64,000 nucleotides of DNA from Brasilonema sp. CT11 (GTDB taxonomy: Bacteria > Cyanobacteriota > Cyanobacteriia > Cyanobacteriales > Nostocaceae). Position 1 is the stretch's first letter. Each line of letters begins with the position of its first letter. Of the stretch, positions 5,097 through 50,197 are shown piece after piece. The translations under genes were made by a program, and so were the position numbers. The DNA is taken from assembly GCF_017982655.1 (NCBI RefSeq), contig NZ_JABXYX010000013.1, positions 33,254 to 97,253 on the forward strand, written 5' to 3'. The notes under the pieces were generated by a model. The model did not search any database. It was not told the origin of the DNA and was given only the letters and a program-made list of their open reading frames with translations.

Positions 5097-5699
5097 TTCG
5101 TATCTCCTACCTTCTGGACTGGTAATTTATCAAAAGATAGAAAACAATACAAAAGTAAATTCAGTATAATTTTTTTTATTTCTTTCATTTTTACCCGCAC
5201 CAGATGAAAACACTCTAGTATAAACTTTCGAGTAAACACCCCTTCTTCTAACTATTATTATAAGTAATTACGTCGAGTTGATAGCCAAAACAAACAGCAG
5301 CTGATTTTATTTCGATTATTGTAACTGTTACTATGTTGGTTAATCTGTCATCGGTAACTATAGTTGTTAAAAGAGATACATCGAATGGTTAAGAAGTGTT
5401 GCTCTACGGTTTTAAATATGTAAATTATTTAACAATAAAGTATAGAATTGAGTTTGTGTGCTTTTCCTTTCTAAGTAGAACCACCAAATTAAACATAAAA
5501 TGCGTGGTGTCAAAAACCCGGTTTCTTTAAGAAACCGGGTTTCTAGATTTTACGTTTTTTTATGTTGATCTACTTATTTTGGAAAATTTGGCATGTTTCC
5601 GAGTCACACAGATAATTCATCTGTGTTAATCTATGTTAATCTGTGCTTCTAAATCCTAAATACAGGTTTTTGCCAAAAATTATCTTTTATAAATGAACT
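5097..5699. other. Intergenic region between divergent genes
   Basis: A+T-rich spacer between the divergent kinase and TPR genes, so it must hold both promoters; no clear -10/-35 pair can be singled out. It contains one strong hairpin (5514-5542). No ORF is supported. Confidence 0.6.
5514..5542. repeat. Perfect 14-bp hairpin
   Basis: Arms AAACCCGGTTTCTT and AAGAAACCGGGTTT are separated by one base. It sits in the middle of the spacer between divergent genes, not directly after a gene, so a dispersed palindromic repeat is more likely than a terminator. Confidence 0.7.
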
Positions 5700-6167
5700 A
5701 TGTTTGACAACTTTCAACCAATATCTATTATTGCAATAACTGCTGTTATTTCTAGTATTGTGCTCCTTGGTTATTTCTCCTGGAAAACTTTGAAAACTTC
5801 AAATCTTTTTCAAGAAGCAATCAATCTCTATCAACAAGAAGATTACAAAAGTGCTGAAGCAGCTTTTCGTCAAGTCATTGCTCTGAACTCTACTAACGAT
5901 GTTGTTCACTTGTTGCTAGGAGATACTTTGATACAGCAAGGAAAAATAGAAGAAGCAAGGCAACAGTTTCAAGAAGTGATTGACCGTGCTCCTAAAAAAA
6001 TTGATGCTTATTTGCGTCTGTCAAATGTTTTAATGCAACAAGAAAAAAAAGGAGAAGCAATTGGAACTCTGCAAAAAGCTAAATATTTATGCCAAGCACA
6101 ACGTCAACCAGAAAAAGCAGAACAAATTAATCGTATTCTTCAGAAAATGACTAAGAATAATTCCTAA
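5700..6167 (+). CDS. Membrane-anchored TPR protein
   Basis: 155 residues. One N-terminal hydrophobic helix (about residues 7-27) is followed by tetratricopeptide repeats from about residue 35 to 140 (patterns such as YQQEDYKSAEAAFRQVIAL and GKIEEARQQFQEVI). TPR arrays mediate protein-protein contacts, here probably at a membrane surface. The stop is 3 bp before cobA, so it is probably co-transcribed with cobA, hemD and perhaps coaE. A link to tetrapyrrole enzymes is only suggested by this position. Confidence 0.8.
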   Translation: MFDNFQPISIIAITAVISSIVLLGYFSWKTLKTSNLFQEAINLYQQEDYKSAEAAFRQVIALNSTNDVVHLLLGDTLIQQGKIEEARQQFQEVIDRAPKKIDAYLRLSNVLMQQEKKGEAIGTLQKAKYLCQAQRQPEKAEQINRILQKMTKNNS

Positions 6168-6170
6168 CTC

Positions 6171-6935
6171 ATGGCTGAACAAAGGGGCAAAGTCTACATC
6201 GTAGGTGCTGGACCTGGAGATATAGGATATCTAACGCTCAAGGCTTACAGGCTGTTATCAAGTGCTGAGGTTTTGGTTTACGATGCTCTGGTAGATCCTG
6301 AGTTGTTGCAATGTGTACCGCCTGATTGCTTGAAGCTGAATGTGGGGAAACGTGGTGGTCAACCGAGTACACCGCAAGCTGAAATCAACCAGTTAATGGT
6401 AAAGTATTGTCAGCACAGAAAGCAAGTTATTCGCCTCAAGTCTGGTGATCCATTTATTTTTGGTCGCTGTAGTTCTGAAATTGAGGCGTTGAAGACGGCT
6501 GGTTGTGAGTTTGAAGTTATCCCAGGAATCTCCTCAGCAATAGCAGCACCATTGCTGGCGGGAATACCTCTCACCGATCCAGTTATGAGTCGATGTTTTG
6601 CTGTGTTTACTGCTCATGATCCAGATGCTTTGGATTGGGAGGCGCTATCACGGTTAGAAACTTTAGTTATTTTAATGGGAGGACAGCATCTAGCAGAGAT
6701 TTTACACCGGCTCGTGCGACAAGGACGCTCGCGCTCAACACCCATAGCCATTATCAGATGGGCAGGAACACCTCAACAACAAATCTGGACAGGTACTTTA
6801 GAAAATATACTTGAGCAAACATTCGGTGTGTCGTTGTCGCCAGCGGTGATTGTGATTGGTGAAGTTGTGGGGCTACGTGGTTATCTGCAACCTGAGAAAA
6901 TATCATTAGAGAATTCTTCAGTCGCTGACACTTAG
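6171..6935 (+). CDS. cobA: Uroporphyrinogen-III C-methyltransferase
   Basis: 254 residues, the usual length for a stand-alone enzyme without the CysG oxidase half. It transfers two methyl groups from SAM to uroporphyrinogen III to make precorrin-2, the branch point to sirohaem and cobalamin. Visible family motifs: the N-terminal SAM loop VGAGPGD, the RLKSGDPFIFGR motif near residue 85 and a glycine-rich VIPGISSA stretch near 117. It is followed after 12 bp by hemD, which makes its substrate, so the two are likely one transcript. Confidence 0.95.
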   Translation: MAEQRGKVYIVGAGPGDIGYLTLKAYRLLSSAEVLVYDALVDPELLQCVPPDCLKLNVGKRGGQPSTPQAEINQLMVKYCQHRKQVIRLKSGDPFIFGRCSSEIEALKTAGCEFEVIPGISSAIAAPLLAGIPLTDPVMSRCFAVFTAHDPDALDWEALSRLETLVILMGGQHLAEILHRLVRQGRSRSTPIAIIRWAGTPQQQIWTGTLENILEQTFGVSLSPAVIVIGEVVGLRGYLQPEKISLENSSVADT

Positions 6936-30470: not shown

Positions 30471-30821
30471 CTAAACACGCTCATCAAACCTTGTGCGAAA
30501 ACCACCGTATTTCAACCAGTATTGCTTTAAGGTATGGTGGGGCGTATGTAAACTTGCCTTCGCTCGATAAAGAATCACCTGACGATGATCGCCCATCCAG
30601 ATTTTGCCAATGGGTTCAATGGATAATAACGCTCCTCCCAGCGCCGCAATACACTCTGAAAATCGTTCAACCGCACTGTAATCAACTGATTCAAAAACAA
30701 AAAAATTTCCTGAACTGATCAAATGTCGGCTCCGGATCCAGCATTGCATTTTTTTTTCAGCTTCCGGTGGCAACATTCCTATTTTCACCCCAGCTTCTGT
30801 TTGCTCACCTAATACGTTCAT
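30471..30821 (-). CDS. cpeR: CpeR, activator of phycoerythrin genes
   Basis: 116 residues, or 101 if translation starts at the internal ATG 30776, where the conserved part (MLPPEAEKKMQCWIRSRHL) begins. CpeR is required for expression of cpeBA and related phycoerythrin genes in Fremyella and Nostoc; it resembles PP2C-type folds weakly and has no typical DNA-binding motif. Further conserved pieces: FFVFESVDYSAVERF, GKIWMGDHRQV and TPHHTLKQYWL. It is the last gene of the cpeCDESTR order, 12 bp after cpeT, so it is cotranscribed and would act as a feed-forward activator in green light. Confidence 0.88.
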   Translation of the reverse strand: MNVLGEQTEAGVKIGMLPPEAEKKMQCWIRSRHLISSGNFFVFESVDYSAVERFSECIAALGGALLSIEPIGKIWMGDHRQVILYRAKASLHTPHHTLKQYWLKYGGFRTRFDERV

Positions 30822-30833
30822 AAAACTCTTGCT

Positions 30834-31439
30834 TCAAAGACGATCCAGGGGAAGTTCATGTGCAAAACTTTCACGCTTTTCAAACTCCAACGCCCCAAAC
30901 GTAGATCCCCAAACTTGTTGATGGGTATTGACATCCATACCTTTGTCAAGACTAACCCAGGTTGTTGCCGTCAGCTCCACATCACTGATTAGATACGTTA
31001 AACAGCCCTTTCGTTCGAGCAGGCACTTGTTTCCTGGCTCCACACTACCTAGAAACATCTCGCCCTCTCGTTTGAAAATCATAGAGCAGTGATACCGTCG
31101 TTCAATACAATCAGGTGTAATGGTTCTGAGAATGCTTAATTCCCGTGCTGCTCCTGCATACAGCAATGGATCGTTAAGACTGTAATTTTCAATATAAATT
31201 TGATTTCCCTGATCAACGAATCGATGCACTCCCTGACGATAGGGACTCCACAAGTCGTAATCGTAAACCTGTTCTGAGTAAAAACCAATCGCATTGAAAA
31301 ACTCAAAGGGTAAGGGACGAAAAAAGATATGGATATGAGCAAATTGCTGAGGGTTATGGTAGGATTGCTTATAGTTGCTAAAATCACCTGCCATCCACTG
31401 AGCCAGCGTTGTTAAGTCATTGGCTTTTACTGAAGTCAT
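30834..31439 (-). CDS. cpeT: CpeT, phycoerythrin bilin lyase/chaperone family
   Basis: 201 residues, full length for CpeT/CpcT (calycin-like beta barrel). Conserved features: LAQWMAGDFSNYKQS at the start, HIHIFFRPLPFEFF near 34, FYSEQVYDYD near 54, and CSMIFKREGEMFLGSV near 118. Family members attach bilin to Cys155 of beta subunits (CpcT) or act with other lyases on phycoerythrin beta (CpeT). 77 bp after cpeS and 12 bp before cpeR. Confidence 0.93.
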   Translation of the reverse strand: MTSVKANDLTTLAQWMAGDFSNYKQSYHNPQQFAHIHIFFRPLPFEFFNAIGFYSEQVYDYDLWSPYRQGVHRFVDQGNQIYIENYSLNDPLLYAGAARELSILRTITPDCIERRYHCSMIFKREGEMFLGSVEPGNKCLLERKGCLTYLISDVELTATTWVSLDKGMDVNTHQQVWGSTFGALEFEKRESFAHELPLDRL

Positions 31440-31457
31440 GAGCGCGCGTTGTAAGGG

Positions 31458-31511
31458 TTAACTGATAACTGATAGGTGATAATTTATAACAGATAACAGA
31501 TAACTGGTAAC
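31458..31511. repeat. Heptanucleotide-type repeats between cpeT and cpeS
   Basis: Degenerate units of TGATAAC/AGATAAC (TAACTGATAACTGATAGG, TAACAGATAACAGATAACTGG) fill the 77-bp gap between cpeS and cpeT. Confidence 0.65.
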
Positions 31512-31516
31512 AATGA

Positions 31517-32059
31517 CTACTTGCTACTGGAAGAACGAATTTCTGAAGCAAACGATGCAGTCACTACTCCAGTTCCAGCACTCGTTTTGATCAGTGACAC
31601 CCGAAATCGCAAGTTTGGATTGGCAAACCAAATTTTCTCTTCAGCCGCTGCCCGATCATATGTCGTCAGCAGCACAAATGTCCCGTCTTCTGTTAGGTGA
31701 TAGTCACCAGCTGCTGCTATAGTTTCAGCGTATCCCTGATCTCTAAGTAATTTGCCCCGATTGGGGACATCAGGATCGGGAACTGGTACCAGAATACTAC
31801 TGCCTTTCATCTGTGCGTCTTCATCCCAATCTGACTGTCCCTCCCAAGTCATCCCAAAGGGAGACACAATCTGACTTTGGTCAACATTGTATGACTTACA
31901 CAGAGCAATCACAGCCTGATCCTCAGGTGAGAGTGCAATAATATCAATCACCGATTGTACAGCTTCAAAGTGGCTAAATGCTAAATGGTGGGCGCTACGC
32001 TGCGATCGCCAACGCCCAATTGAAAGCTCAACAAATTGCGTAATATCCATCGATTTCAT
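31517..32059 (-). CDS. cpeS: CpeS, phycoerythrobilin lyase (CpcS/CpeS type)
   Basis: 180 residues. Lipocalin-like lyase; CpeS attaches phycoerythrobilin to Cys82 of the phycoerythrin beta subunit. Recognisable: FVELSIGRWRSQRSAHHLAF at the N-terminus, the FGMTWEG strand near 68, and DGTFVLLTTYDRAAAEEKIW plus PNLRFRVSLI toward the C-terminus. Start at 32059; an ATG three codons later (MDITQF) is also possible. Position between cpeE and cpeT agrees with the known cpeCDESTR order. Confidence 0.93.
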   Translation of the reverse strand: MKSMDITQFVELSIGRWRSQRSAHHLAFSHFEAVQSVIDIIALSPEDQAVIALCKSYNVDQSQIVSPFGMTWEGQSDWDEDAQMKGSSILVPVPDPDVPNRGKLLRDQGYAETIAAAGDYHLTEDGTFVLLTTYDRAAAEEKIWFANPNLRFRVSLIKTSAGTGVVTASFASEIRSSSSK

Positions 32060-32517
32060 GGAATGAATTTTAAGAGCAACAGAACAACCACTAACTTTTC
32101 GGGTGTTTGTTTGCCACTTCGCTGGTGATTTTAAAACGTTCTGTGACTACTCCCTTGCAACCTAAAAGATTACCAATCTGAAAACCGCACTAGAGCGCAG
32201 AGAAAATACGCTTCGCTGTTAGAGGTAATTTTAGAGTAGCGAAGGGAGTAATAAGCATGTTTTGACGCAGCTGACAGTTCTCAGTGAGCAAGGTCATAAC
32301 CCAACGGCAGAGACAGATTCGACACGAGGGAAACCCAAAGGCAGCACTCGTCTGTTGTGTTCACCCTATGGCTAACGCCACGCCTTACGGCTATCGGGAA
32401 CGCCCGTCGCCTGGCTGTCGGGAAACCCTACCAAGAGCGCTGAACTCACCAGATGCCTCTGTCGGGAAACACTCATCAAGCACTGGACTCACTGATAACT
32501 GATCACTGTATTATTCT
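32060..32517. repeat. Repeat-filled spacer between cpeE and cpeS
   Basis: 458 bp. 32300-32510 carries the dispersed repeat seen at 28830-29040 (TCGGGAAACCCT, GCACTGGACTCACTG, then TGATAACTGATCACTG). No ORF supported. For genes in one operon this is a long gap. Confidence 0.6.
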
Positions 32518-33285
32518 CTAGGCAACTTCAGTAATACTGAGAATCTTGCCACCAGTTTTTTGGATGTTCTGAATCTTCTGCGACATTTGGTTATAGCCGA
32601 CTTCAAAGGTAACTTTGCCCATGCTTATACGAGGAGGATTAGAGCTACCACTTGCAACAGTAATCCGGAAACGCTTACCAGTATTGCTGTAGGCTCCAGA
32701 GCCAGTTGCTGGGAATTTGATTTTTGTTGGCAGGTTACTTCCTACATCACTAATCAATTTCGCGTTTTTGCCAGCAGCATCATAGGCAGCAAATCCGCGA
32801 TCTAGAGCGAAGGTGCGATTAAAGCCGACATTCTTAATGCCAGTTTGAGTACGATTGCCGCGTGAGTAAGGAACCACGTTTTCACCAAAACTCGCGATAT
32901 ACTCATCACTGTCAATGTAGGAGTTAATCTCCGCTTCGTAGCCCTGCTCATTGTAAATGAGAACATGTCTAGAAATCTCAGTCTGCTCAACTGGAGCGCG
33001 TCCTAACAGATGCTTGAAGTTTAATTCAATGAAACGGTAGGACGATGAAGTTTCAAAAAACAACGAGCGGTAAAGTTCGGATTGGGCAACGGCTCTGACA
33101 AATCCTCGAACGGTAATATCACGATTGCGCAGCAAGGATTCTGCACTGCTGAGGCGCTGACTTTCCATAACGTGGGCATTGCCTAGCACTTGCCGATACA
33201 CCGCCCGAATGATCGTCTGTAGATCATCTTCTAAGGTGTTGGGGCGTAGTTCAAGATACTCTGCATTTGCAATCCAAAGTGCCAT
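32518..33285 (-). CDS. cpeE: Phycoerythrin-associated rod linker CpeE
   Basis: 255 residues. N-terminal linker domain (about 15-150) with [34 protein letters not shown] and [21 protein letters not shown]-terminal CpcD-like domain (about 200-253), FRITV to [12 protein letters not shown]. It connects phycoerythrin hexamers in phycobilisome rods on the thylakoid surface. Third linker gene in the operon, so named CpeE by order; the three linkers are similar enough that D and E could be exchanged. Confidence 0.88.
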
Positions 33286-33841
33286 GGGAATTTCTCCTAA
33301 TGAAGTGTTTTATTGTTCAGTTTGATAAAGTTGAGAAATCACAAGAGTGATTTCATCGGTAAGCTGATTAGACAATAGGTTCAAAGCTGTTTTTCTATTC
33401 CTATGGCGAATGATTAGTATGAGTGATTTCCAATGAAACGACTCAATTGGTCATTGCACATAGTTGCTAGCATAATCTTATCGAAATTTCAATCTCTTAA
33501 ACCAGAGCTTCAAAGTTTTTTTTATCGTTTTTATGGAAACAGATCCAAAGGAGCATCGCCCGTTGGGCAGATCTTTGCGCGAGAATGGCGTTTGTTGACT
33601 GTTTTTGAGCAGCACTTTTGGGCGATGCTCCCTTGGGGCACCAACTCCATCGAATCCAAGATTTGAGGCAACAAAACTTAGTTTGGTTGGGGCGTAGGAC
33701 GCTTGGCGCGATCGCTTCTCTAGGAAACGCTGAACGCGCTCTGCATAGCGGCAGATCGCCACCAAAGGCTCAGTTCACAGCAGGAGCATCGCTCTCAAGA
33801 ATTACAAAGAACATGTCCATGCAATTCTTGAAAGTTCATGC
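33286..33841. other. Spacer between cpeD and cpeE with long inverted repeat
   Basis: 556 bp without supported gene. Inverted arms GAGCATCGCCC (33551-33561) and GGGCGATGCTC (33620-33630) flank about 58 bp; a third GGAGCATCGCTC copy lies near 33782. The 60 bp upstream of cpeE should hold its ribosome site (AGGAGA before 33285). Confidence 0.55.
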
Positions 33842-34597
33842 CTAGACAATCTCAGTGATGCTGACAATCTTAGCGCCGGTGCGGTTAATCCGCTGAATTT
33901 GAGGTGTCATGTTGTCACCAGAAACAATGTATTCGGTGGTGCTGACCCGACGAGGGCTATCAAACTTGGAACCCCGCACTAAAATCTTGAATTTCTTTTT
34001 GTTCGCTTCACCCGAACCACCGAGGTTTACATCTGCCGCTTTTATTTTGTTCGAGCTGTTGGTAGCCACTGGATAAACCAGTTGAGAGGACTTAACCGCG
34101 CTACTGATTTGAGAAGGACCACGATCCAGAGCAAACGTACGGTTATAGGAAACCTGACTCCGCCCAACCTCCGTTTTTGCCCCACGATTGTAGGGTACAA
34201 CATTTTCGCCAAATGCTGACTGGTACTCTTCGCTATCGATGTAGGAGTCGATTTCAGCGTCGTATCCCTTTTCCACACAACGAACGATGTGCTCGGAAAT
34301 CTCCGCTTGGGACTGGGGTGGACGACCGAGGAAGTGCTTGAAATTCAATTCTATAAAACGATAAGGAGCACACGATTCAAAATAACGCGAGCGGTAGAAA
34401 TCCGACTTAGCTACTGCGCGGACAAACTCCCGTACAGAGATAGTGCCATCTTTCAATTGTGATTCTGCACTCACCAAGCGCTCACTTTCCATCACATGGG
34501 GGTTGCCTAAAACCTGCTTGTAGACTGCCCGAATGACTGCTTGTACATCCTCTAGGTCGCGGGTGGGCCAGAGTTCTATTGGTGCTATTGTTGCCAT
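33842..34597 (-). CDS. cpeD: Phycoerythrin-associated rod linker CpeD
   Basis: 251 residues. Same architecture as its neighbours: linker domain about 18-150 ([54 protein letters not shown]) and a C-terminal CpcD-like domain (FKILVRGSKF to GAKIVSITEIV). Assembles phycoerythrin discs into rods. Named from its place between cpeC and cpeE. Separated from cpeC by 563 bp of hairpin-rich DNA, so relative dosage of the linkers may be affected. Confidence 0.88.
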   Translation of the reverse strand: MATIAPIELWPTRDLEDVQAVIRAVYKQVLGNPHVMESERLVSAESQLKDGTISVREFVRAVAKSDFYRSRYFESCAPYRFIELNFKHFLGRPPQSQAEISEHIVRCVEKGYDAEIDSYIDSEEYQSAFGENVVPYNRGAKTEVGRSQVSYNRTFALDRGPSQISSAVKSSQLVYPVATNSSNKIKAADVNLGGSGEANKKKFKILVRGSKFDSPRRVSTTEYIVSGDNMTPQIQRINRTGAKIVSITEIV

Positions 34598-35160
34598 AAT
34601 TAAGGGAATACTCCTAACACTTGTTTTGCTGAGAATTCAAAACTCAGTTCATACTGACCAGTGATTAGCAACTGAAGTAGCAATTACCAACTTCGCTATG
34701 CCTGACGTTACGCACTCGATGATTGCTGCGTAAAGGTTAGGGTTTGCAGTTTCAACTGCTTAAGATCACTCTGGGAACAAGTACGATACATTATCTGGAC
34801 GTTGGGAAAGCACCCCTAACTTCAAAACTTGGGAGGTACTCCAGGGCGAACGCACAAGCGATACGCGCTCGTCGCGTCTGCTTTTTGGGCAATAAGCTTT
34901 TTTGCCCAGAGAGATTCTTAAATAATCTCTCTGGCCAAATCGAATATTTAGAGCATAGGGCGATCGCGGCGCGCCCTTCTTTGTGCAGAGGGTTTTCTGG
35001 AGGAAAACTTTCTGCACACAGGGCAGGCGCAGAGGGTTTTCTGGAGGAAAACTTTCTGCACACAGGGCAGGCGAAGCAATCGCCGTGACTCAACACTCTT
35101 GCCTGTTCCCCAAGTCTGGTGCTATCAACGCGTCTGCTAATAACCGATCAGCATTTTCTG
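34598..35160. other. Hairpin-rich spacer between cpeC and cpeD
   Basis: 563 bp, no supported gene although several short frames are open. Contains AGAGAGATT / AATCTCTCT hairpin near 34909-34933, a GGGCAATAAGC / TTTTTTGCCC hairpin just before it, and a duplicated 45-bp unit at 34984-35073. Confidence 0.6.
34984..35073. repeat. Two copies of a 45-bp hairpin-forming unit
   Basis: Units start at 34984 and 35029 with period 45 and near-perfect identity. Each contains TGTGCAGA or GCAGAGGGTTTTCT and AGGAAAACTTTCTGCACA, which pair over most of their length. Located between cpeC and cpeD. Confidence 0.75.
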
Positions 35161-36009
35161 CTATACAGGCGTGATACTAGCGATGACACCGCCCTGTCTG
35201 TGAATCCGTTGATATTCTTCCGAAAGCTTCTCGAACGGTACCAAGTAAACCTGATTGCTGCGGCGGAATTTGGAAACTCGGTTAACCGCATTTGCTCGGT
35301 AGCCAGTGACTTCGATGCGGAAAACTTTGCCTTCTTCGCTTGCTCCCACACCAAGACGGACACGTGAGCCTAGTGGCGGGTTGCGGAAGGTTGATCCTGG
35401 TGGAACAACAGGGGTTGGTATTGCACTAATGACTAGTGAGTTGAGTTTTGGAGACTTCCCTGCCAAATCTCCCTTGAGAGAGCTAGTGGAAGCACCCCGC
35501 ACCAACTGGAAGGTATGGGTAAAGCCAATCATATGGCTTAATGCTTCGGTCTTGTAGCCTCTAATGTAAGGTACCAGGTTTTCACCAAAGGTGTTCTGAT
35601 ATTCGTCACTGTCAAGGTAGGAGTCGATTTCAGCTTCAAAATTACCTGCATCGAGGATGGCACTGTGAGCCTTCATTTCATCGTAACTATTAGGGGCACG
35701 ACCAAGTAAGTGCCGGAAGTTTAGCTCGATAAAACGATAGCGGGGGGTATCACCAAAGCGCGAGAAGTAGAGATCGGACTTTGCTACAGCCCGAACAAAC
35801 TCACGAACACTGAGTTCACCACGTTTGAATTGTGATTCTGGCACTGTCAGCCGCTCACTTTCCATGACGTACGCATTACCCAGCACTTGCCTGTAAACGG
35901 CTTGAATCAGGATTTGTGCTTCTTCATCAGAGCGACCTGGAACCCACTCAAGTGGAGGGGTTTCGTCAAATAAGCTAACTCCTAAACGTGATGCTGGTCC
36001 AAAAGGCAT
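35161..36009 (-). CDS. cpeC: Phycoerythrin-associated rod linker CpeC
   Basis: 282 residues, first gene of the operon. Linker domain about 28-165 ([53 protein letters not shown]), a Ser/Pro-rich linker, and a C-terminal CpcD-like domain (VFRIEVTGYRAN to GGVIASITPV). CpeC joins the innermost phycoerythrin hexamer to the rod. AGGAGA lies about 9 nt before the ATG. The leader has competing hairpins (36109-36160), a possible control point by analogy with the Cgi light system of Fremyella, which acts on the cpeC leader. No cpeBA genes are in this window. Confidence 0.92.
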   Translation of the reverse strand: MPFGPASRLGVSLFDETPPLEWVPGRSDEEAQILIQAVYRQVLGNAYVMESERLTVPESQFKRGELSVREFVRAVAKSDLYFSRFGDTPRYRFIELNFRHLLGRAPNSYDEMKAHSAILDAGNFEAEIDSYLDSDEYQNTFGENLVPYIRGYKTEALSHMIGFTHTFQLVRGASTSSLKGDLAGKSPKLNSLVISAIPTPVVPPGSTFRNPPLGSRVRLGVGASEEGKVFRIEVTGYRANAVNRVSKFRRSNQVYLVPFEKLSEEYQRIHRQGGVIASITPV

Positions 36010-36628: not shown

Positions 36629-37333
36629 TCACTCGGTTGCGCCTGCCTGTTGTAAAATTTGAACTGCACTGACGGGACGAAACGATCGCTTTGCTTCACT
36701 TAATGCCGTTGCCCCCCAACGGTTTTTGGGACGAAAGTCCGCGCCATGCTCAAGCAGGAGTTCCATCACCTCCAAATCTCCCCGTGCTGATGCCATCATT
36801 AATGGAGTCCAGTCGCCAATGTTGTGCGTATTCACCGAGGCTCCCCGTGAAATCAGTGCCTTGACAGTATAAAACTGTCCATTGTCAACTGCCAAGTACA
36901 GCGCCGTATCGCCAATCCTGTTGGTTGCATGTACATCTGCCCCCAAGTCAATCAGACGCAGGATCAGATCTGTCAGACCAAAGCGAGCAATAGACATCAG
37001 CACAGTCTCACCGTAGTGGTTTCTCGAATGGATATCAGCTCCATAATCCAGCAACGCATTAACGCTTTCTGAATACCCACCCTCTGCGGCGTACATCAGG
37101 GCAGTATAGTTAGCATCATTTTTGATATTCACATCTGCACCATGAGTCAGTAGGATTTTAACCACATCCGCATAACCCTCTCCCGCTGCCCACATGAGTA
37201 AAGTATTGCTTTCTCCAACTGGGGTGACTCCCCCAGTTGTATTGACGTTTGCCTGTTGAGCTAACAGATCTGCCACCGCCGTAGCATCTCCTCGAACAAC
37301 TGCTCGGATCAATTCATTGTTCAGTGAAGACAT
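36629..37333 (-). CDS. Ankyrin-repeat protein
   Basis: 234 residues, made almost entirely of six to seven ankyrin repeats (ADVNIKNDANYTALMYAAEG, ADIHSRNHYGETVLMSIARF and so on). Ankyrin stacks bind other proteins. No signal peptide or membrane segment, so cytoplasmic. It lies directly upstream of the phycoerythrin linker operon on the same strand and 109 bp after the DUF2656-like gene, so an accessory or chaperone role for phycobiliproteins is possible but not shown. Confidence 0.9.
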   Translation of the reverse strand: MSSLNNELIRAVVRGDATAVADLLAQQANVNTTGGVTPVGESNTLLMWAAGEGYADVVKILLTHGADVNIKNDANYTALMYAAEGGYSESVNALLDYGADIHSRNHYGETVLMSIARFGLTDLILRLIDLGADVHATNRIGDTALYLAVDNGQFYTVKALISRGASVNTHNIGDWTPLMMASARGDLEVMELLLEHGADFRPKNRWGATALSEAKRSFRPVSAVQILQQAGATE

Positions 37334-37442
37334 AGTTTTCTACCCCCTACACTGACTATAGAACAAACCACATAGACGCAGAGGGGCTTCCCGCTTTCTT
37401 AGCAGACAAAGGAAAAGAACTACCAGAGAGTTATTGCATGAG

Positions 37443-37919
37443 TCAAGACTGCTTCAGTTCAACTTTAAACACACTATCAACAGGCTTTTGGGCAATAGTC
37501 GCATCCCAGGCGATCGCCCGCAAAAACTCCTCTGTTGATGCTGTTTCCACAACATCCACTCCCCATTGTCCAGGTTGCAGCGAGCCAGCCGAAGTACTCG
37601 TTGGTGGAGTCGTTTTCATTCCTCCCAGTACCAAAATATCTGGGATTGGTTGTTCGGCGGACTGTTGCGAGCGACGCTTTTGGGCTAGTATCTGGGCGCA
37701 GTGTTTGCCAACCTGCTGCGGTGAAAGCTCATCACTGGGAAACAGAATTTCTACGATCCAGTGAGGATTGTCCACTGTCTGACATTTGATATTTTTCTCA
37801 TCACCGAATCCTTCAATAAAGACGGTGGCGAACTGTTCTCGATCAAGTTCAGGAACACTGTTGTTTGACACATTAAAGTTATGAGAAAGCAGCATTCGTT
37901 GCTGGGGTAAGTCGTTCAT
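37443..37919 (-). CDS. DUF2656-like cyanobacterial protein
   Basis: 158 residues. Starts MNDLPQQRMLLSHNFNVSNN and contains LDREQFATVFIEGF, HWIVEILFPSDELSPQQVGK and a C-terminal GQWGVDVVETASTEEFL. I associate this with DUF2656, a family often located near phycobiliprotein genes, but I am not certain. No catalytic motif is evident. It is probably cotranscribed with the ankyrin gene downstream. Function unknown. Confidence 0.65.
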   Translation of the reverse strand: MNDLPQQRMLLSHNFNVSNNSVPELDREQFATVFIEGFGDEKNIKCQTVDNPHWIVEILFPSDELSPQQVGKHCAQILAQKRRSQQSAEQPIPDILVLGGMKTTPPTSTSAGSLQPGQWGVDVVETASTEEFLRAIAWDATIAQKPVDSVFKVELKQS

Positions 37920-43832: not shown

Positions 43833-45026
43833 CTACGAGTTCGGTGTAAGCAGAATCAACTGACGTTTTTGGAGCGATCGCACTCCTTCCAAATCCATCC
43901 CCGTCTTCTGTATTAATGTCTCAACCGTTTCCTGTCCCTGAGCATTGTCGCACGCTTCTAAAAAAGCATACTCTGCTTCACTAAGTCTGACGACTTGATA
44001 GTTATAATCTAATATGACTTGACTTGGCCACCCTTCCATGCATGGACTGCGTTCGGGAATGGAATTGAGAACAGTCGCGTCATCTGACCAATCCATGCGG
44101 GATATTGGAGGACGACCGAGGAAGAATTCGTAGTGGCTGATTTCTGGATCAAGCAGTTCAGTGAGATGGTAGCGTTGACGTTCGCTCAGGTGTGCTGCCC
44201 GTTCCATCAAGTCTGGTTGTTGACCAATCAAACGTTCCAATTGCCAGTACAAAGGATTTGAGAAGCCGATGAACTCTAACCCAGAGGCATCAATCAACTC
44301 AAACAAAGTATCGATGCGATAGTCTATTTCCTGGGGATGGACGTACATATCGGCAAAGTAACCATCGCGGTGATTTTCCAGGGACCAACGTTCCTTTTCC
44401 CGCTTCAGCAGTCGGTTATTTTCCGGCAGGTTGGCAAAGATTTCCCGACCGACTTTCACCCCATCCTGATAGTCTCCACGGCGATCGCCTTGGAGGAGTG
44501 CGATCGCTTTTTGCATCAGGCTAATTTCCCAGCGTCCCAATTCGGCATACACAAAAATATGCATCAACCCCCCCGGAGCGAGTTTACCCGCCAGACTTTG
44601 TATGCCCTTGATCGGGTCGGGGAGATGGTGTAAAACACCAACGCAATTGATATACTCAAATTGACCTGATACCTGTTCTACATCATACAAACTCAGGTTG
44701 TGAAACTCAACGCCATCAGCTCCGGAACGCTGACAACGTTCGCGGGCAACTGCGATCGCCCCTGCACTCAAATCAATCGCGACTACCTGAGCATGGGGAT
44801 TTAGGTGTACGATATACTCTGTTCCTGCTCCCGTTCCGCATCCCGCATCGAGAATACGAACATTTTCACGCTCCGGTTTGCGTCCCGTGCAGAAGTTATA
44901 AGCTGTGTTCCAGTTCCATCGCCAGTTATATCCCGGTGGGGGTTCGTCTAGAAGCGGATCTGGAGGGAAGGGATAGGTGTTGTAAAGTTTGGCAACTGCC
45001 GAGCTGACTGCGTGAGAGGAATCCAT
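43833..45026 (-). CDS. SAM-dependent methyltransferase, phycobilisome operon
   Basis: 397 residues. Class I methyltransferase with motif I ILDAGCGTGAGTEY near residue 58, followed by VVAIDLSAGAIAVARERC and VGVLHHLPDP near 128. The N-terminal YNTYPFPPDPLLDEPPPGYN is typical of a cyanobacterial group. It is the last gene of an operon with cpeF and an orphan phycobiliprotein-like gene. CpcM, which methylates Asn72 of beta phycobiliproteins, is a possible identity given size and context, but I cannot confirm it; the substrate is therefore open. Confidence 0.85.
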   Translation of the reverse strand: MDSSHAVSSAVAKLYNTYPFPPDPLLDEPPPGYNWRWNWNTAYNFCTGRKPERENVRILDAGCGTGAGTEYIVHLNPHAQVVAIDLSAGAIAVARERCQRSGADGVEFHNLSLYDVEQVSGQFEYINCVGVLHHLPDPIKGIQSLAGKLAPGGLMHIFVYAELGRWEISLMQKAIALLQGDRRGDYQDGVKVGREIFANLPENNRLLKREKERWSLENHRDGYFADMYVHPQEIDYRIDTLFELIDASGLEFIGFSNPLYWQLERLIGQQPDLMERAAHLSERQRYHLTELLDPEISHYEFFLGRPPISRMDWSDDATVLNSIPERSPCMEGWPSQVILDYNYQVVRLSEAEYAFLEACDNAQGQETVETLIQKTGMDLEGVRSLQKRQLILLTPNS

Positions 45027-45065
45027 TGTTCAGTTATCAGTTATCAGTTTTTTGCTTTTGAGTCT

Positions 45066-45647
45066 TCAGTGTTTGAAAGATTTCAGTTGAGTGATCAGAT
45101 GGTCAAAATAGGGAGCGAGTGCTGCTTGCTCCTCAGAGTCAATCCGTTTCAAACTCGCAATTTTAATATTTTCCAAACCAACCACCATTGCATCAAGAGG
45201 AACTCGTAGTCCTTGATACAACAAACTCATGTATTCTAGTCCTGTGGGGCTTGTGTACTCAGTGCTGTGACCGGCTAGACCATACGTGATGCAGCGCAGA
45301 AAGTGCCAAAAATCACGCCAGCAAGCTTCGGCACGCTCTGGTGGGTAAAGACCACCTCCGGGTTGAGTAATGCCAGGGAAAGTTATCAGGACTTGTTCTC
45401 TTGCTTCGTCTACGATTTCAGTTACGCGATCACGCAACAGCCGTGCGACTGGAATGAATCCTGAGGTTTGGGGGGAGAGGGTTTGGATGTGCTGTAAATC
45501 TTCATCGGTGAGATATCGTCCTTGATCATCGGCTGCTTGGAACAGAGGAATGATTGCTCTTGGGTGCGTCGTCTCCCAGCCGGAAAAACTGACAATTCTC
45601 GCTTTTTGAATAAGTTCTTTGACTGCTTCACTGAGTTCAGGCTTCAT
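45066..45647 (-). CDS. Orphan phycobiliprotein-fold protein
   Basis: 193 residues, somewhat longer than normal alpha or beta subunits (160-177). The helix around 108-126 reads ACWRDFWHFLRCITYGLAG and aligns with the Cys84 helix of phycobiliproteins (C-x-R-D and L-R-x-x-T-Y), so the bilin-linking Cys and the Arg/Asp pair that hold the chromophore are conserved. Later GLEYMSLLYQGLRVPLDAMV matches the end of the globin fold. It is not CpeA, CpeB or a known Apc/Cpc subunit by length and flanks. The gene lies between a small beta-barrel-like gene and a methyltransferase, downstream of cpeF. Role unknown. Confidence 0.78.
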   Translation of the reverse strand: MKPELSEAVKELIQKARIVSFSGWETTHPRAIIPLFQAADDQGRYLTDEDLQHIQTLSPQTSGFIPVARLLRDRVTEIVDEAREQVLITFPGITQPGGGLYPPERAEACWRDFWHFLRCITYGLAGHSTEYTSPTGLEYMSLLYQGLRVPLDAMVVGLENIKIASLKRIDSEEQAALAPYFDHLITQLKSFKH

Positions 45648-45706
45648 GTTTTACCGATACTTTTTCGCTGACGTTTGCTAACAAATACAATCTTGAAGTT
45701 CTTGTA

Positions 45707-46009
45707 CTAACGTATTCGGTGCTCAGTCACTAGGGTTAAGCTACTCCACTTTCCTTGGTCATTATACGCACGAATCATGCGCTGGCGTAACCCTGGCTGA
45801 AATACCCAATCAACTTCCAGAAAGAAAGCGTGTCCTGATTTTATCTGGGTTGGACAGGTGGAAGATGCGCCATCGGGTAGTAGTAAAACTTGGTAATCTA
45901 GAGACTCGTGGTCAAAGTCCAGACGGGATTCATTACTATTAGCCGCAATTGTCATCGTATACTGAGTTTTCTCTTCCCCCCATAAGAAATCTTGTACACA
46001 CTCATTCAA
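45707..46009 (-). CDS. Small protein resembling the C-terminal part of DUF3598/CpcS-like barrels
   Basis: 100 residues. The region GHAFFLEVDWVFQPGLRQRM and GKWSSLTLVTEHRI resembles the last strands of DUF3598 proteins, relatives of CpcS-type bilin lyases. The N-terminal half of such proteins is absent, so it is either a natural short variant or a truncated gene. It begins 24 bp after cpeF and is 59 bp before the orphan phycobiliprotein gene, so it is probably cotranscribed. Function unknown. Confidence 0.5.
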   Translation of the reverse strand: MNECVQDFLWGEEKTQYTMTIAANSNESRLDFDHESLDYQVLLLPDGASSTCPTQIKSGHAFFLEVDWVFQPGLRQRMIRAYNDQGKWSSLTLVTEHRIR

Positions 46010-46033
46010 GGAAGTGCTTCCAACCTGGATTTT

Positions 46034-46954
46034 TTATTCCCAGTCGTCCTCTTGCTGTGAGTGTTTCTCTATTTGAGAAATCGCCAACTTGATCACTGGT
46101 TGAACCCCTGTTTCACTTTCTTGCCCTAACGCCGCTTGCAAGGGTTCTAACGCCGTGCGATCGCCTATCTTCATTAATGCCAGTGCAGCTGCTTTGCGGC
46201 TTTGCCAATCAGGATGATCCAGTAACGAAATCAAGTTGGCAACTGCTGGTCGATAGCTCAAATTACCCAAGACTGCTGCGGCTTCGCAGCGTACATTTGT
46301 GTCTGGATCGCCCAGGGCTTTAACCACAATCCCAAATGCTTCCTCTTGGGGGTTTTCTTGGAGAATTTTGGCGATCGCCCCAATCACAGCAGCGCGAACG
46401 TCAGGCGAGTCAGAGTCAATTACCTTATAAATATACTCCTTTGCCTGTGCGCCGATAAATGCCAGCGCCCATGCGGCATGACCCTTGGTATTTTCAGAGG
46501 AATTTGAGTCCGCTAAAATTTCCAGCAAAGGTGGTACAGCTGCCTCACCTGTCCTAGCCAGCGCACCAACTGATGAACCCTGGACAACTGTGTCTTCATC
46601 ATTGAGGAAAGAATGAACCAGAACCGGAACTGCTTTTGGATCAGCAATAATTGTCAGAGTTTTGGCGCTGGCGCGACGCACAACCACATTTGGGTGATGT
46701 GCCAGTGCTTCCAGTAAGAATGGAGTTGCCAATTCACCAATTTGACCGAGTGTCTCTGCAACTCGCATCCTAACCAACCCGCGTGAATCTCCTAAAGACT
46801 CAATTATCCGTTTGAGGAGTTCATGGTCATTGGGATTGAAGGTGTCCAGATCCATTTGCTCCTTAACCATTTCCAGCAAAGCATCGGTTTGTTCCTGGGA
46901 CGGTGGTATTAAATTCTGGCCGGATTTCGTTTCACTATTGAGCAGATCACTCAT
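46034..46954 (-). CDS. cpeF: CpeF-type HEAT-repeat bilin lyase
   Basis: 306 residues. HEAT-like repeats throughout (VRMRVAETLGQIGELATPF, VVRRASAKTLTIIADPKAVP, VQGSSVGALARTGEAAVPPL, HAAWALAFIGAQAKEYIY). The N-terminal MVKEQMDLDTFNPNDHELL and the overall length match my memory of CpeF, which attaches the doubly linked phycoerythrobilin to the phycoerythrin beta subunit in Fremyella; MpeV-like lyases are related. Other E/F-type lyases (PecE/F, CpcE/F) remain possible. First gene of a probable four-gene minus-strand operon ending with the methyltransferase at 43833. Confidence 0.7.
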   Translation of the reverse strand: MSDLLNSETKSGQNLIPPSQEQTDALLEMVKEQMDLDTFNPNDHELLKRIIESLGDSRGLVRMRVAETLGQIGELATPFLLEALAHHPNVVVRRASAKTLTIIADPKAVPVLVHSFLNDEDTVVQGSSVGALARTGEAAVPPLLEILADSNSSENTKGHAAWALAFIGAQAKEYIYKVIDSDSPDVRAAVIGAIAKILQENPQEEAFGIVVKALGDPDTNVRCEAAAVLGNLSYRPAVANLISLLDHPDWQSRKAAALALMKIGDRTALEPLQAALGQESETGVQPVIKLAISQIEKHSQQEDDWE

Positions 46955-47082: not shown

Positions 47083-47322
47083 TTAATGACTCGTCAACAG
47101 AGCAGTTTGGCGATCGCGGAGGTCTTTGAGCACAGCATCAATTTTGGCAAGTTCCGGTTCAAGTTGAGCGAGTGCGGTTGCCTTCATCACCTTAGCCTTT
47201 TGCGCCGTTGCTAGCCTTTGATTAATCAACCTTTCGCGATATTCCTCAAATTCTGCAATCACCTCGCTCAGTTCTTCAGGGGAAGTTTGATTTGTTGGCG
47301 TGTGTTCTGAATTTTCAGTCAT
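47083..47322 (-). CDS. Small coiled-coil hypothetical protein
   Basis: 79 residues, highly charged and helical, no Cys, with a heptad-like stretch from about residue 18 to 74 (LSEVIAEFEEYRERLINQRL to LAKIDAVLKDLRDRQ). Reads as a single coiled coil. No known function. It lies 128 bp upstream of cpeF on the same strand, so it may be the first gene of that operon. Confidence 0.6.
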   Translation of the reverse strand: MTENSEHTPTNQTSPEELSEVIAEFEEYRERLINQRLATAQKAKVMKATALAQLEPELAKIDAVLKDLRDRQTALLTSH

Positions 47323-47439
47323 TTTGAGTTTTTCCTAAAGTTGTATTTATAAAAAGTCTAAGCTCGATTTTCTCAGATCACGTCACCACCAAGCAAACCT
47401 TTTTGATTACAGTGATGGTAAGTTGTGCCATATATTGCT

Positions 47440-48096
47440 ATGGATATTCACGAAATCAAAACTGCTTTAAATAATTCTGATTTTCAATATCGATTGAAAG
47501 CGATCGCTGCCCTCAAAGACTATACACCAGAGGTAGCCGTTCCCCTACTCACCAGCAAACTTCGTGATTCGGAATTTCTGGTGCGATCGTTTGTTGCTAT
47601 GGGACTGGGCAAACAACAGACTGCTGAATCCTTCGCTGCCTTGCTGGAGTTGATGAAATTTGACAACACCCCCAACGTCCGGGCAGAGGCTGCGAGTTCT
47701 CTTTCTCTGTTTGGCAAAGTTGCTGCGTCTCATTTGGTTTTCACCTTTTTTCGGGATGATCACTGGTTAGTACGGCGTAGTATTCTGGCAGTGCTGGTTG
47801 ATCTGGAGTGTCCTAACGAATTGTTTGAAATCTGCATCCAAGCTTTAGCGGGAGAAGACTTTAGCGTACAGGCAGATGCCATAGATGCGCTTGGTACATT
47901 TGCTCTAACAAGTCTTGAGGAACCCGCTTTGTCTCAGTTGTTGGCGCTCGTTGGTTCAGAGTCTAAACAAATTCGCATACATGTTGTTCAGGCACTGAAG
48001 CGGTTTGATCATCCGCAGGCAAAAGAAGCCCTGAGGCAACTTCGCCAAGACCGAGATCATCAAGTCGTCGCCGCTGTACTAGAAAACTTGCTTTAG
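47440..48096 (+). CDS. HEAT-repeat protein
   Basis: 218 residues from ATG 47440; a GTG at 47425 is the alternative. Five to six HEAT-like repeats (LKAIAALKDYTPEVAVPLL, VRSFVAMGLGKQQTAESF, VRRSILAVLVDLECPNEL, VQADAIDALGTFALTSL). It resembles general cyanobacterial HEAT proteins more than CpeZ or NblB as I recall them. It is transcribed divergently from the small coiled-coil gene and cpeF, so it probably belongs to the phycobilisome locus, perhaps as a scaffold or chaperone. Confidence 0.8.
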   Translation: MDIHEIKTALNNSDFQYRLKAIAALKDYTPEVAVPLLTSKLRDSEFLVRSFVAMGLGKQQTAESFAALLELMKFDNTPNVRAEAASSLSLFGKVAASHLVFTFFRDDHWLVRRSILAVLVDLECPNELFEICIQALAGEDFSVQADAIDALGTFALTSLEEPALSQLLALVGSESKQIRIHVVQALKRFDHPQAKEALRQLRQDRDHQVVAAVLENLL

Positions 48097-48391: not shown

Positions 48392-48592
48392 ATGTCTGAC
48401 ACTCTCCCAGGTCAAATGACGTGGAAAGCCCCAGGTACAACAGATTGTGTGTTACATCTGCGACACAATTCCTCAGAACCTTGGCGGTATTATAAGGAAT
48501 TCCCAGAGTATGTTGTGCCTGATCCACCCGACTTTTCAGAAGGGTATGCGACATTTGTTGCACTCTTGAAAAAGAAGTGGGAAACGGTTTGA
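48392..48592 (+). CDS. Small conserved-looking hypothetical protein
   Basis: 66 residues; start ATG 48392 with GAGG about 7 nt upstream. Sequence features: LPGQMTWKAPGTTDCVLHLR, EPWRYYKEFPEYV, DPPDFSEGYATF. Mostly polar with several Trp/Tyr/Pro residues, no membrane segment or metal motif. I do not recognise the family. It sits alone between the HEAT-repeat and histidine kinase genes. Confidence 0.5.
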   Translation: MSDTLPGQMTWKAPGTTDCVLHLRHNSSEPWRYYKEFPEYVVPDPPDFSEGYATFVALLKKKWETV

Positions 48593-48649: not shown

Positions 48650-50197
48650 TTATGAGGCATCACCGGGAGCGTTAAGCGCAGCTCTGCCGTAGGCAATCGC
48701 CAGCCGCACTGTAAAAATGGAACCTTCATTTAGCTTACTTTTGACAGAAATAGAGCCACTAGAGCGAGATAGCAATAATTGCACAATTGATAAGCCTAAG
48801 CCAACACTACCAGAATCTTCTGTTGTGGTTGGACGTAAGCGATAAAAGCGCTCAAAGATTTTAGGAATCTCGCTATCAGCAATACCAATACCAGTATCGC
48901 GAAATTCCAATTGGACATAATCACCCTGAACACGTCCTTGTACCCAAACTTGTCCACCTTTGGGGGTGAAATTAATGCTGTTGGAAAGCAAATTAATTAC
49001 AATCTGCCTTAGTCCACCACTGACACACCAAACAGCTGGAAGTTGAGTTCCTACAGTGTAGGCTACCATGATGCCTTTTTCTCGGGCTAGGGGCTGATAA
49101 ATACTCACCACTCCAGGCACAACTTCCGAAAGACGTACAACCTCCAAAGGCATCTGTGGTAAATTGCGCTCTAACTGCACCATATCAAACACTCCAGTAA
49201 TCAGAGCATTTTGGCGATCGCACTCTTGTTTAAGCATTTGAAAATAACGTTGTTTTGAAGCGATTTTCAAATGAGGAGAATTTAAAAGACTCAGAGCTGT
49301 TTTCATGTGTGTTAGAGGTGCACGTAGTTCCTGGCACACACTGCTCAAATATTCATCTTTGAGTTGCAGATTCTCTTGGAGTTTTTGATTTTTCTGCTGC
49401 ATGTTAGCAAGACGCTTTGTCGTTCTTTGACGATAAATTTCATCTTGTTGCTGAAGTTGTTTTGCCAACAGTTGACTGATAAGTGTTGGTTCTGGTGCTG
49501 AAGGACAAATAAAATCAGCAGGCATAAGTAAAGATGACTGTGGTCTGATGGCAGATTTCATCACATCCAACACGAGTTGAATAGTTTGTCCCTCAAAAAT
49601 CGTCACAGCAAGTAACGGTGCAGTTTTTTTTCTATTTGCTTTCGCCAAATTGTTTTGGCGTGATCTATTGGGTCTATGAGCCAAAATCAGACAGCAATAC
49701 TGCGACGACAACACCATCACAAAGTATTCCCGTTGTAACTGGCTATTTGGTGCGCTTTGAACCAGGAAAGATTGGGAAAATGAAGAGGTCGGGGAGGTAC
49801 TGCTGTACTCTTGCACAGAATCTTTGCTAAGGTGTGGCGTTTGTGTCAACACAGGAGAGTTTCCTCGTTGAGTCCCAGTGGTGTGTCTCTGGCGTGAGGA
49901 CGAGGGAGTTTGTTCTCCTTCTACTTCTGTTTTGCTTTCCTGAATGTGCAAAGTACGAATGACACCAGACATCGTCACTTGTTGTTGATAACGCTGAATT
50001 TCTGAGTGCCAAATTTTTCCAGGTGGTAGTTTAACCCACAAAGTAGCTGCAATCTGTTGCTCAATGAGTAAATCAATTTGTGATTTCAATTGTGCTAGCA
50101 GAGTTGCAGGACTATGAGGCAATAGTTGCGCAAGCGCTTGCATCCCTGAAGCCAACTGCTGATAAATGGACACATCCTGAGCAAAAGAAAAGTTCAT
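48650..50197 (-). CDS. Histidine kinase-like protein with substituted H-box
   Basis: 515 residues. Residues 1-230 form a sensory region of DICT-like character (FVMVLSSQYCCLILAHRP, VTIFEGQTIQLVLDVMKSAI); a coiled coil follows (about 245-290). The dimerisation helix reads SSVCQELRAPLTHMKTAL: the phosphoacceptor His before E is Gln. The ATPase part is intact: N-box RQIVINLLSNSINF, G1 FRDTGIGIADSEIPK, G2 VGLGLSIVQLL. So it may bind ATP without autophosphorylating at the usual site, or use the nearby His of THM. No adjacent response regulator. Cytoplasmic, no membrane helices. Confidence 0.88.
   Translation of the reverse strand: MNFSFAQDVSIYQQLASGMQALAQLLPHSPATLLAQLKSQIDLLIEQQIAATLWVKLPPGKIWHSEIQRYQQQVTMSGVIRTLHIQESKTEVEGEQTPSSSRQRHTTGTQRGNSPVLTQTPHLSKDSVQEYSSTSPTSSFSQSFLVQSAPNSQLQREYFVMVLSSQYCCLILAHRPNRSRQNNLAKANRKKTAPLLAVTIFEGQTIQLVLDVMKSAIRPQSSLLMPADFICPSAPEPTLISQLLAKQLQQQDEIYRQRTTKRLANMQQKNQKLQENLQLKDEYLSSVCQELRAPLTHMKTALSLLNSPHLKIASKQRYFQMLKQECDRQNALITGVFDMVQLERNLPQMPLEVVRLSEVVPGVVSIYQPLAREKGIMVAYTVGTQLPAVWCVSGGLRQIVINLLSNSINFTPKGGQVWVQGRVQGDYVQLEFRDTGIGIADSEIPKIFERFYRLRPTTTEDSGSVGLGLSIVQLLLSRSSGSISVKSKLNEGSIFTVRLAIAYGRAALNAPGDAS

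Follow-up and report, generated by a model that had tools for sequence, protein, structure and literature searches.

A probable phycoerythrin-regulon module with aplA, a cpeF-type lyase gene and a CpcM-like methyltransferase gene in Brasilonema sp. CT11

A stretch of 64,000 nucleotides from the cyanobacterium Brasilonema sp. CT11 (NCBI RefSeq assembly GCF_017982655.1, contig NZ_JABXYX010000013.1, positions 33,254 to 97,253 of the forward strand; hereafter the window) carries at 43833-46954 a run of four minus-strand open reading frames (ORFs): a bilin lyase gene, a DUF3598-type ORF, a gene for a divergent phycobiliprotein and a methyltransferase gene. The ORF coordinates bear out the successive gaps of 24, 59 and 39 bp given in the initial annotation, which had read the run as an undescribed phycobiliprotein-like system joining bilin attachment to protein methylation. 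Our analysis points with good confidence to a different reading, namely that the run is a module of the phycoerythrin (PE) regulon, with genes for AplA, a CpeF-type lyase and a CpcM-like methyltransferase, and not a self-contained new system. The lyase and the methyltransferase would act on CpeB and other beta-subunits, AplA would be a separate protein made under the same conditions, and the three genes would share a run because all are needed when PE is made. The class is thus known, its arrangement here is unusual though local, and two additions to it can be tested. This reading draws on gene identities (from sequence, phylogeny, synteny and co-occurrence), on the residues at the enzymes' target sites, and on the decay of the DUF3598 gene.

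The 193-residue phycobiliprotein, rightly described as divergent and as carrying a bilin-type cysteine, can be identified from its features and gene order as AplA, an allophycocyanin-like protein outside the antenna subunit families. Its matches to antenna ApcA and ApcB fell below the NCBIfam cut-offs (71 bits against 270 for ApcA, 66 against 228 for ApcB). Its Cys109 occupies the alignment column of the allophycocyanin bilin cysteine, within a Cys-x-Arg-Asp site (C109/R111/D112) kept in 104/104 AplA rows, which include some genomes twice. In a phycobiliprotein tree whose bootstrap is not fully settled, 28 AplA rows formed one clade (support 100/100) apart from 18 other phycobiliproteins. The AplA class was reportedly named and described in 2004 from Fremyella diplosiphon, and is said to have been defined there by an N-terminal extension of about 28 residues relative to allophycocyanin. 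In the window protein the extension comprises approximately residues 1-28: 35 residues precede residue 36, compared with 7 at the same place in ApcA and ApcD of the same genome (28 more than in ApcA), and the median across the 104 rows is likewise 35 (range 30-106, upstream starts included).

Gene order gives the same answer. The AplA clade includes syntenic orthologues from loci L179, L180 and L181, and in the first two the order is apl, linker-like gene(s), a pentapeptide gene, cpe linkers, cpeS, cpeT and a CpeR-like gene. This matches a passage of Six et al., in which marine aplA lies upstream of cpcGII with a pentapeptide gene downstream of that; taken with the joint clade, the match indicates that the window gene is orthologous to the published marine aplA. 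L179 and L180 would accordingly belong to marine Synechococcus, and their linker-like gene would be cpcGII. In L181 a phycocyanin-type pair precedes apl, as a passage of another paper describes for some clusters, and no linker stands between apl and the pentapeptide gene. Further passages report that every PEII-containing marine Synechococcus in one study has aplA, and term AplA a member of a new photosensor class of unknown function; the mentions of AplA found in the literature were brief. The clade and the synteny with published aplA thus rule out an undescribed phycobiliprotein, as the initial annotation had proposed.

The window protein resembles AplA of F. diplosiphon and of marine PEII Synechococcus in its extension, its bilin site, its closeness to allophycocyanin and its setting in a PE region, the likeness to the Fremyella protein being one of features. 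It differs from the marine type (f36) in the position of a second cysteine (Cys119 in the window group, Cys113 in f36 rows), and in its NblB-like neighbour, of which inspection of three f36 loci gave no sign. A separate candidate was smURFP, engineered from allophycocyanin alpha and lacking the N-terminal part, which scored near the top against the window protein at 27-30% identity; its derivation from aplA is not supported, since several ApcD chains outscore it over the same stretch.

The second cysteine is a nearly constant character of the family. Of 113 distinct AplA sequences, 112 have it after the bilin cysteine, at +10 (as in the window) or at +4 (in the f36 marine-type rows), with both in L183; a regular expression gave 111/113, to which the alignment added L047, where the motif had been placed falsely and Cys119 is present. 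The sole exception, L154, has Ser at +10, and no cysteine was found at +4 or +10 in any of 121 other phycobiliproteins compared. The literature passages held no mention of this residue, and we make no claim of novelty for it.

The tie between aplA and PE is close. Among 59 relatives, aplA was detected in 21 and CpeY over its cut-off in 21, with 20 in common, and among 244 genomes of the phylum, at strict thresholds (aplA E 1e-40, CpeY E 1e-100) that omit weaker orthologues, the corresponding numbers were 22, 20 and 19. Genes around aplA include pebA, pebB, cpeS, cpeT, a CpeR-like gene and linkers; in the window, a PE rod operon lies about 8 kb from the four-gene run. A plasmid search for aplA matched 6 of 72,556 records, three at 27-29% and three at 57-60%, the latter within PE clusters of Pseudanabaena PCC 7367 and Rippkaea PCC 8801 (recognised by annotation) and Gloeothece PCC 7424 (by similarity), so placed that the PE/aplA module could spread laterally via plasmids. 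These three homologues are annotated merely as phycobilisome protein or phycocyanin. One of the plasmids bearing these clusters (L111, L112, L113) is typed as conjugative and one as mobilizable.

The HEAT-repeat protein at 46034-46954 is predicted to be a lyase of the CpeF/MpeV type, in keeping with the initial annotation. Its gene occurs in 21 of the 59 relatives, and 20 of these also have CpeY (the exceptions are G049 and G024); its position is that of a PE-cluster gene: it adjoins the cpeZ-position gene in L185, L180 and L181 and cpeY in L112, and lies near both in L045, while the f36 homologue (37-43%) is found near CpeA/CpeB. A CpeF model was absent among the NCBIfam matches of the window protein. 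According to literature passages, the closest Synechococcus RS9916 homologue of Fremyella cpeF is mpeV, and CpeF attaches a doubly linked bilin at CpeB Cys50/61. The genome of the window encodes CpeB and CpeA next to CpeY on a different contig, and this CpeB has both cysteines (Cys51 and Cys62), to which the CpeF-type lyase would attach doubly linked phycoerythrobilin. No AplA row (0/104) has a cysteine at either column, which rules out AplA as a CpeF target at the canonical residues. The window copy thus shares with known CpeF/MpeV the HEAT repeats, the restriction to PE genomes and, in other loci, the place beside cpeY or the cpeZ-position gene, but differs in standing beside aplA, an arrangement that outside the genus group is found in few loci (8 of 80 aplA loci overall, the best 80 of 232).

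AplA itself would most likely hold a single bilin, which an S-type (CpeS) lyase would link to Cys109, and would most likely be a light- or bilin-responsive protein of PE-making cells. Its closest associate is a divergent gene for an NblB-like HEAT protein, perhaps a helper or dedicated lyase for AplA, which 51 of the 80 loci have no more than 1.5 kb from aplA (49 divergent upstream); no other gene family counted was so often a close neighbour. At an identity of at least 50%, a line of our own (25 genomes have it at E 1e-30), the NblB-like gene is present in 23 of the 59 genomes, among them 20 of the 21 with aplA. NblB of phycobilisome degradation is likewise a HEAT-repeat protein and is the best NCBIfam model for the window protein; the score of 97.9 bits is well under the equivalog cut-off of 300, which, with the location beside aplA, makes the NblB-like protein probably a separate paralogue. 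Genes of two CpeS-type lyase families also lie within 1.5 kb of aplA, in 9/80 and 6/80 loci. We infer that either the NblB-like protein or a CpeS-type lyase attaches or moves the AplA bilin, and the onward role of AplA may be light sensing, as has been suggested in print, or bilin carrying.

Two proposals on that role go further. In the first, AplA carries bilin while phycobiliproteins are turned over or assembled: the NblB-like protein would move bilin to or from Cys109, and AplA would buffer phycoerythrobilin or phycocyanobilin while PE is remodelled. The frequency and co-occurrence of the NblB-like gene and the nearby CpeS-type families suit this proposal, as does a literature passage in which NblB, a homologue of CpcE, is studied for phycobilisome degradation. 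However, the neighbour's score lies below the NblB cut-off, the NblB-like gene occurs without aplA in G026, G040 and G054, and none was seen next to aplA in L179-L181; we hold the carrier possible but on the whole doubtful. In the second, which is more speculative and to which we give a small chance, AplA serves PE-producing cyanobacteria as a biliprotein sensor with two cysteines. The second thiol in the bilin helix could then provide a reversible second thioether or a bilin redox switch, with output through the conserved N-terminal helix and the NblB-like HEAT partner and not through energy transfer.

The fourth gene encodes an S-adenosylmethionine (SAM) methyltransferase, as first annotated, and probably a protein methyltransferase. 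It is a paralogue within a phycobilisome-linked family that is probably CpcM, known from the literature as the asparagine methyltransferase of phycobiliprotein beta-subunits (beta-Asn72). The phyletic profile of this family follows the phycobilisome core and not AplA: it is present in 56 of the 59 relatives with no association with aplA (p 0.26), and among the 244 phylum genomes it and ApcA each occur in 98, with 97 in common. In 13 of 20 fetched methyltransferase regions, the ordinary copies lie 0.5-7.7 kb from a divergent apcE; these regions come from 20 of the 56 genomes, were partly picked for a hinted nearby phycobiliprotein, and include one that ends at a contig edge (L123) and two broken copies (L121, L125).

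The window copy belongs to a different branch. In a tree built without duplicates (L001-L004), pieces shorter than 300 aa (L006, L007, L065, L121, L125) and the L054 fragment, it groups with eight rows within 10 kb of aplA, separate from 11 apcE-linked rows. In G015 and G078 the one copy found lies 1-2 kb from cpeY, as does a second copy in G008 and G094. In the genome that the window comes from, the copy on the apcE side is broken into two frames (L121, C22:98000-117500, about 5128-6340), which leaves the window copy as the only intact methyltransferase of this family found in the assembly. In sister genomes, the apcE-side copy survives as its C-terminal part alone in G004 (L125), and as a full-length frame in G001, G003 and G005. 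The window protein resembles CpcM as a SAM methyltransferase with a phycobilisome-wide phyletic profile, and is unlike it as a PE-linked paralogue. The location of a methyltransferase lineage in PE clusters is a new detail.

The same genome encodes phycobiliproteins labelled ApcA, B, D, E and F and two phycocyanin-type pairs (labels by similarity and position, except for ApcA and CpeY). An asparagine at the site methylated in beta-subunits is present in CpeB (Asn73), in both phycocyanin-type beta chains, and in ApcB, ApcF, ApcA and ApcD. The asparagine of the beta-subunit methylation site is found in 0/104 AplA rows, and AplA as a CpcM-type target is ruled out at that site. Against the CpcM assignment stands the nearest solved relative, 8hkr, which bears the name of a protein lysine methyltransferase and whose alignment covers residues 5-259; the enzyme could instead methylate lysines of phycobilisome or photosynthetic proteins. 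The match is distant (74 bits), however, and both the co-occurrence with the phycobilisome core and the location near apcE fit a phycobiliprotein-specific enzyme, of which CpcM is one already known; we consider a lysine specificity improbable.

The remaining ORF is a relic. The initial annotation saw in it a DUF3598-like small protein, and the similarity to BFA1_C stands, but the protein is not intact: the 100-aa ORF starts at TTG, and tblastn aligns the stretch with residues 213-319 of a 319-aa Brasilonema angustatum homologue. A 281-aa Microseira homologue carries both DUF3598_N and BFA1_C domains, of which the N-terminal one is gone from the window. The gene is likewise decayed in three sister genomes: Brasilonema bromeliae (L031) retains residues 1-30, Scytonema RU_4_4 (L034) residues 1-31 plus 232-318, and Brasilonema UFV-L1 (L035) two overlapping, scattered C-terminal fragments. 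A DUF3598 protein as a system component is ruled out by this decay.

The four genes, which from their spacing would form a single transcript, were found together only in the genus group of the window (L003-L005, L032-L034), with the BFA part whole or partial and one extra gene interposed in L034. Within 1.5 kb of aplA, the 80 loci contain the cpeF-type gene in 8, the BFA gene in 6, the methyltransferase gene in 5 and the NblB-like gene in 51. A dedicated four-part system, in which the orphan phycobiliprotein receives its bilin from CpeF and a methyl group from the methyltransferase, would suit the tight spacing on one strand and these occasional neighbourhoods of the two enzyme genes, but is highly improbable given that AplA lacks both the CpeB Cys51/Cys62 pair and the asparagine site, which also leaves the joint bilin-attachment and methylation system first proposed without support, that the methyltransferase is present irrespective of aplA, that the DUF3598 part is a relic, and that the linkage is limited to few lineages.

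Several points also weigh against reading the run as a PE-regulon module. The names AplA, CpeF and CpcM rest on features, synteny and co-occurrence and not on characterised sequences, and the labels CpeR-like and cpeZ reflect position (for the former, also size) without a family model. The co-occurrence is imperfect: aplA is found without CpeY over threshold in G049, G274, G276 and G089, CpeY without aplA in G026 and G136, and a CpeY-like gene under the cut-off (574 of 600 bits) without aplA in G057. The omission of weaker orthologues from the phylum sample matters here, as 8 of 15 re-searched f36 genomes held full-length aplA at E 1e-33 to 1e-38. For the methyltransferase, G184 has the gene without ApcA and G032 the reverse, and support for the split between PE-linked and apcE-linked copies is moderate (90/87, 90/90).

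Table 1. Features of the four-gene run and its surroundings in the window.
Feature	Coordinates	Strand	Basis
Class I SAM methyltransferase, 397 aa	43833-45026	-	Pfam Methyltransf_12 E 5e-19; PE-linked paralogue, CpcM candidate
aplA, allophycocyanin-like phycobiliprotein, 193 aa	45066-45647	-	PF00502 E 7e-49; bilin Cys109, second Cys119
DUF3598/BFA1-type gene remnant (last third), 100-aa ORF	45707-46009	-	BFA1_C profile positions 51-135 of 135
Putative cpeF-type HEAT-repeat bilin lyase (MpeV/CpeF lineage), 306 aa	46034-46954	-	HEAT_PBS E 5e-21
79-aa conserved protein directly before the cpeF-type gene	47083-47322	-	No match over Pfam cut-off
NblB-like HEAT protein, divergent	47425-48096	+	NCBIfam NblB 97.9 bits, cut-off 300
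Conserved 66-68-aa protein of the aplA/NblB-like neighbourhood	48392-48592	+	No Pfam match
PE rod operon: three linkers, cpeS, cpeT, 116-aa CpeR-like protein	30471-36009	-	Pfam PBS_linker_poly/CpcD, CpeS, CpeT
cpeS	31517-32059		Within PE rod operon 30471-36009

The wider neighbourhood holds further conserved genes (Table 1). Of the 22 loci among the 80 that have the HEAT gene, 21 show a homologue of the 79-aa protein within 400 bp upstream of it and in the same orientation, and the 66-68-aa family occurs in 26 of the 80 aplA loci (the window copy shows 68% over 66 aa), possibly as one of the 'unk' genes of phycobilisome regions. The CpeR-like protein of the rod operon has no Pfam match, and is 83% to the gene after cpeT in relatives. 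The linker operon is adjoined on the minus strand by genes for an ankyrin-repeat protein and a DUF2656 protein (36629-37919); these families occur within 10 kb of aplA in 16/80 and 14/80 loci, respectively. Beside the module, also on the minus strand, a gene at 48650-50197 encodes a histidine kinase that has a DICT sensory domain at its N-terminus.

Taken as a module of the PE regulon, the run ties AplA tightly to PE and names a likely partner gene, that of the NblB-like HEAT protein. Two point tests of AplA are offered by its second cysteine and its conserved helix at the N-terminus. The tie of the methyltransferase family to PE clusters, seen most directly in G015 and G078, in which a copy was found near cpeY only, opens the way to direct tests of beta-subunit methylation in PE.

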